From positions 2,626,501 to 2,690,500 of the forward strand of contig CP126191.1 of the NCBI GenBank assembly GCA_030272155.1: DNA of 64,000 bases. The letters are read 5' to 3'. Shown in pieces: positions 46,630 through 48,641 of this stretch. The notes under the pieces are model-generated. The model saw only the letters and a list, made by a program, of their open reading frames with translations. It ran no database searches and was not told the origin of the DNA. Source of the DNA: Tetradesmus obliquus (lineage: Eukaryota; Chlorophyta; Chlorophyceae; Sphaeropleales; Scenedesmaceae). A program made the position numbers and the translations under genes. Numbering within the stretch: the stretch's first letter is position 1; every line of letters begins with the position of its first letter.

Positions 46630-46634
46630 GTCAT

Positions 46635-46880
46635 TGTAACGGGGACCTGTGGTGACACTGTCCGGTGACATGTCTCTATAGCCCGCTACAAGGTAGAGGA
46701 TGGGACGCTATCCAATACCACTGTTATACAGGAGAACGACGTGCACTCAGTGCGAGGGGATTTGATGCCGACCTCGGGTTTTATCTTGCGGTCTGGCTAC
46801 GTCGGCAAGGACGTGTGTATATATGGTGCACATCGTTCCCCAATCCCATTATCCAGTAGCAGGTCACTAGGCCTGTTACA
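46635..46880 (+). repeat. 5' LTR
   Basis: 246 bp, TGTAAC...GTTACA. Contains a TATATA box near 46817-46823. Its first 38 bp are repeated inside the element at 47021-47058. Confidence 0.93.
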
Positions 46881-46883
46881 TCT

Positions 46884-46958
46884 TGGTAGCTGAGACAGGT
46901 TTCGATCCTGTGACCTATGGGTTATGAGCCCATCACGCTTCCACTGCGCCACTCAGCT
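46884..46958 (-). tRNA. Full-length antisense copy of initiator tRNA-Met (CAT) with encoded CCA, at the primer-binding site
   Basis: On the minus strand this reads as a complete cloverleaf: acceptor AGCTGAG/CTCAGCT, D-arm GCGC/GCGT, anticodon stem ATGGG/CCCAT with loop CTCATAA, and T-arm ACAGG/CCTGT with loop ATCGAAA. The A1-U72 pair, the three G-C pairs at the anticodon and the A54/A60 T-loop are hallmarks of eukaryotic initiator tRNA. CCA follows the discriminator A directly (46884-46886), three bases from the LTR end. Nuclear tRNA genes do not encode CCA, so this is best read as a reverse-transcribed primer rather than an ordinary gene. A-box TGGCGCAGTGG and B-box GGATCGAAACC are intact, so RNA polymerase III transcription cannot be excluded. 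Confidence 0.9.
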
Positions 46959-46991
46959 GCTGCTCGAACCCAGGCCGCACCGAGCTGCTGC

Positions 46992-47017
46992 GGATAATGG
47001 GATTGGGGAACGATGTG
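46992..47017 (-). repeat. Inverted copy of an LTR segment
   Basis: A perfect 26-bp reverse complement of LTR positions 46829-46854, imperfectly extended by a few bases. With the LTR it brackets the tRNA copy and could fold into a long hairpin. Confidence 0.93.
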
Positions 47018-47020
47018 AGT

Positions 47021-47058
47021 TGTAACGGGGACCTGTGGTGACACTGTCCGGTGACATG
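47021..47058 (+). repeat. Second copy of the LTR 5' terminus inside the element
   Basis: 38 bp identical to 46635-46672 (start TGTAACGGGG, end GGTGACATG). The last three bases supply the ATG of the internal ORF. Confidence 0.93.
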
Positions 47059-47394
47059 CAGCAGCCACCGCCGCTGCCGGCGGGCCAGGCGCTTATTACT
47101 GATACACTACAGCATGCAGCTCTCACTGCTGCGCAGCAACAGCATAATCAGCTGGTAGAGCAGCGCCGACAGCAGCAGCAGCTGCATCAACAACAACAGC
47201 GACAACAGCTGGTAGCGCAGATGTTACAGGAGGCTAAGCAGCAAGCGGTGTTAAGGTTTTGGGAGTTGCTTGCTGATTTTGTGGCAACAGAGGCAGCGCC
47301 CGCTACTTGGCGGGTTGCGGTGCCTGGCAATCACCCGTTTCTGTGCTCTGATCCAGCGCAGCTGCGCATTGTACTGGCGCCCCGCTCTGGTTGA
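47056..47394 (+). CDS. Gln-rich 112-residue ORF inside the LTR element
   Basis: Starts at the ATG at the end of the duplicated LTR terminus and ends with TGA at 47392-47394. Residues 20-75 are a Gln-rich coiled coil (QQQHNQLVEQRRQQQQLHQ), followed by RFWELLADFVATEAAPATW. No Gag zinc knuckle or catalytic motif. It may be a Gag remnant or a captured host fragment; unrecognised. The rest of the interior (47395-47971) shows no ORF of note, only a triple TAGTTTGCCT repeat near 47563-47595. Confidence 0.5.
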   Translation: MQQPPPLPAGQALITDTLQHAALTAAQQQHNQLVEQRRQQQQLHQQQQRQQLVAQMLQEAKQQAVLRFWELLADFVATEAAPATWRVAVPGNHPFLCSDPAQLRIVLAPRSG

Positions 47395-47971
47395 CCTTCC
47401 TGCCTCTGCATGTTGTGCTGTCAGCAGTTGTCGATTTTCCAGTTTCTGTCAAGGACATGTTGCATGTGTTGGGTGTCACAGCGCTGGTTTCTCAGCTCTT
47501 TCCTCCGTGCTGCGTGTTTCTGTCCTTGTCAGCCGTAAGGATTGCAGAAGCAGCAGAGCCCTAGTTTGCCTTAGTTTGCCTTAGTTTGCTTTGATTTGCC
47601 TGTCAGTCGTGCACTGCGTCAGTTATGCATGCTCCTGCTTGCTGCAGTCTGGTGAGTACAGCAGTGCCTTGATGCAATCATGCCAGACATTCATGGTGAG
47701 CAGCACCTTTGTGCACCCCGCTTACTGTTTGGACCATGCTTGTCCTTCCCTGTGCGCTTTTTGCCTGGTGCGTGGAGCACATGCTGCTTTTCGTGCTGCT
47801 TTTCGCACTTGCTGCCCTGCATGTACATGTTCGTTTATGGGGAGATAGGGGCTGCGAGACGCCTCTGGAGTTTTCTTTGGTGGCGTCTTGTGGCTTGCTA
47901 TCGAGTTCATACGATATGTGAGCTGAAAGTAGGGCGAGTGACTCACTCTCGGGTGATAGCTTGCCTTCTCC

Positions 47972-48204
47972 TGTAACAAGCCTCTCCCGTGACATGTCTC
48001 TATAGCCCGCTACAAGGTAGAGGATGGGACGCTATCCAATACCACTGTTATACAGGAGAACGACGTGCACTCAGTGCGAGGGGATTTGATGCCGACCTCG
48101 GGTTTTATCTTGCGGTCTGGCTACGTCGGCAAGGACGTGTGTATATATGGTGCACATCGTTCCCCAATCCCATTATCCAGTAGCAGGTCACTAGGCCTGT
48201 TACA
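47972..48204 (+). repeat. 3' LTR
   Basis: 233 bp. Identical to the 5' LTR from GTGACATG onward; the first 17 bp after TGTAAC differ (a 13-bp length difference). No purine-rich tract directly precedes it, which is unusual for an LTR element; the preceding bases are pyrimidine-rich (TTGCCTTCTCC). Confidence 0.92.
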
Positions 48205-48641
48205 GTCATCCCATTGCTGGGCTGACCAACCCATTTGCAACCTGCCCAAGTAAGTTGGGTGGAGCTTGCTCCTTGCAGAAGCTGGTGATCACTAAGTTAT
48301 TGCGACAATTGATTGATGGCCTGTGTTATTGTCAGTGGGTGGTTGGTGTGGCCCTTGCAACACTGGCAAACCCTAGCTTAAGAAGGCAACTACAACCATA
48401 TTTCTCAATGGCGGCAGCCTTGAGGGTGATTTTTCGTCGTGATACGACTTGTTTCATGATGTCGGCTCACCTGATCTGCCTTCTGTTGTGCCGGCCCGGG
48501 ACCTTACCGGCTGTCAGTCCCGTCCGAATAGTGTAACATCGATGTATGTTGCGTGTTTTGTGCTGGGGCCGCATAATTGATACCTCGCGATCCACGTACG
48601 GCTGTCTTTTGCATTATGCAACTTCTGCCCTTTCCCCCAGA

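Follow-up and report, generated by a model that had tools for sequence, protein, structure and literature searches.

An initiator-type tRNA-Met complement with tRNA-gene flank homology at the primer site of a young LTR insertion in Tetradesmus obliquus

How did a whole tRNA come to lie in antisense at the primer site of an LTR element, and what was it copied from? The question was raised by a 64-kb stretch of Tetradesmus obliquus DNA (G000:C1:2626501-2690500, hereafter the window) from an assembly of 104.66 Mb in 17 contigs, for which a sequence-only reading had proposed a complete initiator tRNA-Met with CCA, antisense at an LTR primer site and templated by mature tRNA. The assembly gave 52 matches to the chlorophyll a/b-binding family, in line with a photosynthetic eukaryote. 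The anatomical part of this proposal was borne out. ARAGORN, run on the whole window, returned one tRNA only, a tRNA-Met(CAT) at 46884-46958 on the minus strand; the Rfam model RF00005 matched it with 64.7 bits (E 9.2e-12, positions 1-71 of 71), and it lies 3 nt from the end of an LTR. From its resemblance to plant initiator tRNA, we take it to be the initiator (iMet).

The element around it was delimited by LTR comparison. The 5′ LTR (46635..46880, plus strand, 246 bp, TGTAAC...GTTACA) and the 3′ LTR (first 38 nt at 47021..47058, remaining 208 nt at 47997..48204, both plus strand) were identical at 246/246 positions once a 930-bp insert in the 3′ LTR was excluded, and GTCAT was found on the outer sides of both (46630..46634 and 48205..48209; a random pair of 5-mers from the window agrees with a frequency of 0.0033), confirming that these are the LTRs of one insertion. 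Without the later insert the element measures 632 bp, with an interior of 140 bp between LTRs of 246 bp. Read on the plus strand, this interior consists of the spacer TCT (46881..46883), TGG, which is CCA on the minus strand and the start of the primer site (46884..46886), the complement of the 72-nt tRNA (46887..46958, minus), 33 nt related to the 5′ flank of a tRNA-Met gene (46959..46991, minus), a 26-nt exact inverted copy of LTR positions 46829-46854 (46992..47017, minus), and AGT (47018..47020, plus) immediately left of the 3′ LTR. The LTR end passes into the tRNA as TGTTACA, TCT, TGG, leaving a 3-nt gap between LTR and CCA complement. Both inner joins show small overlaps: GGAT, the first 4 nt of the inverted copy, also forms the last 4 nt of the flank homology, and a single G is common to the inverted copy and the GAGT (47017-47020) that it meets. 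GAGT is the end of the polypurine stretch in front of the LTRs of two relatives, on contigs C5 and C8; the G-run of that stretch is absent from the window element, in which the GAGT end alone is left. The earlier description had thus placed the tRNA, the CCA and the LTR correctly and missed the gene-flank homology, the inverted copy and the insert in the 3′ LTR. In the RNA fold of 46826-47020 (-109.5 kcal/mol, z -11.1), the tRNA complement is enclosed between the inverted arms. The element is a young LTR insertion with Ty3/gypsy chromovirus LTRs and without a coding interior. A TATATA stretch (46818-46823) starts 11 nt upstream of 46829, where the source of the inverted copy begins; by the usual rule this distance is too short.

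The insert (47059..47988, plus strand) is a non-LTR-type repeat copy whose repeat end lies at 47985, followed by CCC; it is flanked by the 8-bp duplication GTGACATG (47051-47058 and 47989-47996) and splits the 3′ LTR after 38 nt. Among the 40 of 312 candidates that were scored, near-identical copies of the repeat were numerous, and several reached less far at one end but shared the other; in the same sample, clusters were seen at C1:4.95-5.02 Mb, C1:7.99-8.06 Mb, C7:3.42-3.48 Mb and C8:1.47-1.53 Mb, with single copies elsewhere. To us the repeat is reminiscent of the Zepp-like elements of algal centromeres. Its insertion is a later event, separate from that which brought in the tRNA.

The comparison with genomic initiator tRNA-Met genes that the sequence-only reading had suggested was carried out: all 72 tRNA positions were identical to the genes at C17:2629299 and C1:1453507, and three further tRNA-Met(CAT) genes (one on C5, two on C9) matched at 93-96% over 67-70 nt. 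CCA is unencoded in both identical genes, whose 3′ tails read CACAC... and AACAC..., at the place where the window copy has TGG. The first TTTT Pol III terminator follows the window tRNA after 1386 nt, compared with 18-70 nt in five genomic tRNA-Met(CAT) genes that were inspected, so that of the features of a functional tRNA gene the window copy has the intact tRNA and lacks a nearby T-run terminator. Since the tRNA is intact, its A and B boxes should be intact as well. On its 3′ side the tRNA is cut exactly at CCA, without the 3′ flank of a gene; the cut, and the missing 3′ flank and terminator, are as expected if the join went through the primer site.

The template was indicated by the other side of the tRNA. 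In a 429-bp search the match to the C17 gene ran on beyond the tRNA (query 257-366, 90%), and 46959-46995 aligned without gaps to the 5′ flank of that gene with 30/37 identical positions, 6 of the 7 differences (19%) being transitions; the matching stretch sits 5 nt further from the tRNA in C17 than in the window. The alignment scored 23, compared with maxima of 15 in 2000 shuffles (0/2000) and 16 in 3190 window 80-mers (0/3190), and the 33 nt alone scored 19 (0/5000 shuffles); the four remaining tRNA-Met(CAT) genes have flanks that scored 6-9. These matches point to a tRNA gene with its flank, copied directly or via a 5′-extended transcript, as the origin of the patch. A mature tRNA has no such flank, and the proposed read-through on a mature template is therefore not supported.

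Although the flank is 19% different from that of C17, the tRNA shows no change, so the source would most likely be another functional gene, one that this assembly did not yield. A genome search with the flank for a closer source returned the window itself only; it also missed C17 and is thus insensitive. In the RF00005 scan of the genome, the known tRNA-Met genes were not among the 63 of 1714 candidates scored, which makes that scan silent on further sources. The 33 nt were also compared, as a possible decayed inverted copy of the LTR U5, with inverted U5 (46855-46880): the score of 8 was reached by 123/5000 shuffles and lies far below that of the C17 match (19; 0/5000), and this candidate was rejected. 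As a side observation, the score of 8 for the window flank (46959-46991) compares with 5 for the C17 flank, as if the window sequence had been hairpin-corrected; a fraction of 0.038 of random versions with seven changes also reached 8, which makes this likeness marginal and post hoc.

Relatives of the element were then considered. The sequence-only reading had raised the possibility of antisense Pol III transcripts from each element copy, and had asked whether all copies of the LTR carry the 75-nt complement. The genome search found the LTR four times, twice in the window, once on C5 (1/246 differences) and once at C1:9276475 (first 197 nt); the latter two carry no tRNA, so the plural did not hold. 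The tRNA-bearing unit was found as one copy in one assembly, which is too little to call it a mobile family. The LTR copy at C1:9276475-9276671, identical for its first 197 nt, ends no more than 3 nt from the border of the inverted piece (46831 vs 46829). The LTR at C5:2308261 is preceded by GGTGGGGGGGAGT, and upstream of it protease, reverse transcriptase, RNase H-integrase and chromodomain occur in separate frames (domains RVT_1, RT_RNaseH, Integrase_H2C2, rve and Chromo); this copy is a broken Ty3/gypsy chromovirus. A 5′ LTR was not found for it, nor was any copy of the same family with both 5′ LTR and primer site, and the primer site of the window family was for this reason deduced from the C8 element, which gave the best other match to the RNase H-integrase frame of the C5 copy (58% identity). 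The C8 relative is complete (231-bp LTRs, 99.6%; duplication CGTGC), and its LTR is followed by the spacer ACT, at the same place as the TCT of the window, and by TGGTAGCTGAGA, a 12-nt primer site for the same iMet tRNA.

A search with the opening 15 nt of the window site, at most 1 mismatch being allowed, returned 53 other places (3 in the reversed control). In the 20 of these that were inspected, no uninterrupted match exceeded 15 nt; 9 of the 20 lie within 9 kb in front of an RNase H-integrase match in the same orientation. A genome search with the 75 nt gave, besides the window, no retroelement-like match except a 38-nt half tRNA on C15. Among the sites inspected, the primer site of the window is exceptional. 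At two of the primer-site-like places, C6:5925952 and C14:214794, A- and B-box-like motifs follow, perhaps as part of a tRNA-derived repeat.

A comparator for copying from the tRNA itself was provided by copia-type elements of the same genome, which use the iMet 5′ half (GGTTATGAGCC...). Half-tRNA-Met primer sites are described for Osser, Bryco and part of Gymco-II (PMC6317226). Sites were searched as CA, 0-4 nt and GGTTATGAGCC, which gave 20 rows for 19 distinct places (3 in the reversed control), all of which were read; copia pol was confirmed at C15, and the other sites are called copia-type by their primer-site sequence alone. Eight of the 19 continue into the complement of tRNA nt 26-10, mismatched at some positions, four end at exactly 14 nt (the complement of nt 27), two at 13 and five at 11-12, some of these perhaps by chance. 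In five of the eight long sites (5/19 overall) 2-3 nt are inserted exactly before the nt-26 complement, after which the sequence runs to about nt 10; the other three have no insertion. In yeast iMet, nt 26 and nt 9 are methylated. If the same holds in this alga, reverse transcription of the half tRNA might stop or falter at these two positions, and the pattern would be a possible footprint of methylation on plus-strand synthesis. Half-tRNA-iMet sites other than the short ones were seen at C3:1201459, C12:2128211, C14:1655435, C15:2730266 and C16:4327025, and three of the short primer-site-like sequences lie within 1 kb at C10:1972427, 1973122 and 1973341, each behind an LTR-like end and with differing downstream sequence.

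The window copy has no insertion scar before the nt-26 complement, which fits a gene template. Scars are not obligatory, to judge from a Ty1/copia composite at C15:2738930-2747779, in which a 3′ LTR is followed by a primer stretch, for the most part tRNA-like, and then by an LTR in inverted orientation; comparison with its own 5′ site suggests that tRNA nt 22-40 were copied at this junction apparently without a scar. TTGCA stands on both outer ends of the composite, which must for that reason have formed before integration.

The reading that we tentatively prefer, with confidence just short of even, is that a primer-site end was extended on a tRNA-iMet gene and then switched template twice at short overlaps. 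A broken or unfinished DNA end within an ordinary iMet primer site, with TGG and about 9-12 nt common to iMet genes, would have been extended on such a gene, copying what remained of the tRNA together with 33 nt of 5′ flank; it would next have switched through the 4-nt overlap GGAT onto oppositely oriented LTR sequence, of which 22 more nt would have been copied, and the new end would finally have been attached to GAGT, with which the polypurine stretch before the 3′ LTR closes. We infer the loss of the coding interior, the direction of copying and a DNA rather than RNA template, and likewise the timing, either at the cDNA stage ahead of integration or later, through gap repair. The homology to the C17 flank, the unchanged 72-nt tRNA, the 3′ cut at CCA, the overlaps at the joins, the 12-nt primer site of the C8 relative and the absence of a scar speak for extension on a gene. 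Against it, no gene with the exact 5′ flank of the window was found, C17 being a poor direct source because 7/37 differences are too many for an insertion with identical LTRs; the primer site of the element's own family is deduced from a relative with a 58% identical integrase region; and the scar argument is weakened by the three of eight long half-tRNA sites and the C15 junction that have no insertion.

A possible, though on balance doubtful, alternative is that a 5′-extended, under-modified, CCA-bearing iMet precursor served as primer and that plus-strand synthesis copied this precursor, beginning at CCA and passing through the tRNA, as far as the end of its 33-nt leader; the DNA end would then have switched at GGAT to the LTR strand and, at the polypurine end, to minus-strand DNA, to give a product that integrated. 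Gene extension and precursor copying give the same anatomy and differ in template (DNA or RNA) and in time. A precursor would account for the CCA and for the first join, neither of which then needs a jump, and for integration as one unit with a target duplication and identical LTRs; the C15 composite, which shows that rearranged cDNA integrates in the same genome, is a precedent that favours this RNA-level route. Weighing against it, Pol III precursors do not usually have leaders as long as the 33 nt or more required here, and a 5′-extended tRNA with CCA is an unusual species. In HIV-1 systems, copying of a primer tRNA that lacks its modifications reaches the 5′ end, but the full-length product is an inactive template for the next step, according to a review (PMC13191261). 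The stronger statement, that by end-to-end copying of a precursor primer reverse transcription turned a tRNA-gene transcript with its flank into a new LTR-element interior, which would double as a 75-nt primer site and as a tRNA gene, potentially Pol III-competent and directed towards the 5′ LTR, we regard as rather unlikely.

It is improbable that an antisense tRNA-iMet gene between two LTRs was transcribed from LTR to LTR, served as primer site, received its CCA through copying of the primer and was inserted whole: this would explain the gene flank, the CCA and the target duplication together, but genome searches found no donor locus, and neither the missing polypurine G-run nor the terminal inverted LTR piece is predicted by a simple composite. 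Complete copying of a mature tRNA-iMet primer, past m1A58, fits the CCA and the exact tRNA and is nonetheless very improbable, being contradicted, unless the likeness is a coincidence (0/2000 shuffles; 0/5000 for the 33 nt), by sequence that runs on into tRNA-gene 5′ flank. Hardly credible is an assembly error, or a host tRNA gene with an unrelated solo LTR on either side: a gene flank is present on one side, but CCA and spacer stand where a primer site has them, and the outer flanks match each other (GTCAT/GTCAT) but not the inner ones.

It is at the primer site that an LTR element inherently has sequence in common with host tRNA genes. If a primer-site end can be extended on a tRNA gene, as in the preferred reading, it would be a built-in door for tRNA-gene capture, through which tRNA genes could spread or move; the presence of 5′ flank is what lets mature tRNA, tRNA precursor and tRNA gene be told apart as templates. 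A literature search at title and abstract level, which left most subscription papers outside, found, among the papers listed, no account of an LTR primer site occupied by a complete tRNA gene and its flank; as a sign of novelty this is weak.

With Ty3/gypsy chromoviruses that have an iMet primer site the window element shares the LTR, in common with C5:2308261, the 5-bp duplication and the iMet site; it differs in having no coding interior, a tRNA complement of 75 nt rather than the 12-15 nt of relatives and other sites, a gene flank and an inverted LTR piece. TRIMs, which are listed for Chlamydomonas and Volvox (PMC4717578), are likewise very small non-coding LTR elements (here 632 bp, LTR 246, interior 140). 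TRIMs occur as several mobilised copies, whereas the window element was found as one tRNA-bearing copy in one assembly, with no sign of spread, and has a tRNA-gene patch as interior and no polypurine G-run. Helenus also combines tRNA-derived sequence with a miniature LTR element; in its description (PMC10886601), the tRNA-like part is located in the LTRs and is reported without complementarity to the primer site, whereas the window tRNA (46887-46958) lies outside both LTRs, is continuous with the primer site and is identical to the host tRNA. The full-length plus-strand copy of unmodified primer tRNA in HIV-1 (PMC13191261) resembles the window case in that the whole primer tRNA would be copied, and differs in that the window copy passes the tRNA 5′ end into gene flank. 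The template-switch complexes of Triticeae (PMC1950507) are also rearranged LTR elements inserted as one unit with a target duplication; they fuse two elements, whereas the window element includes sequence of a host tRNA gene.
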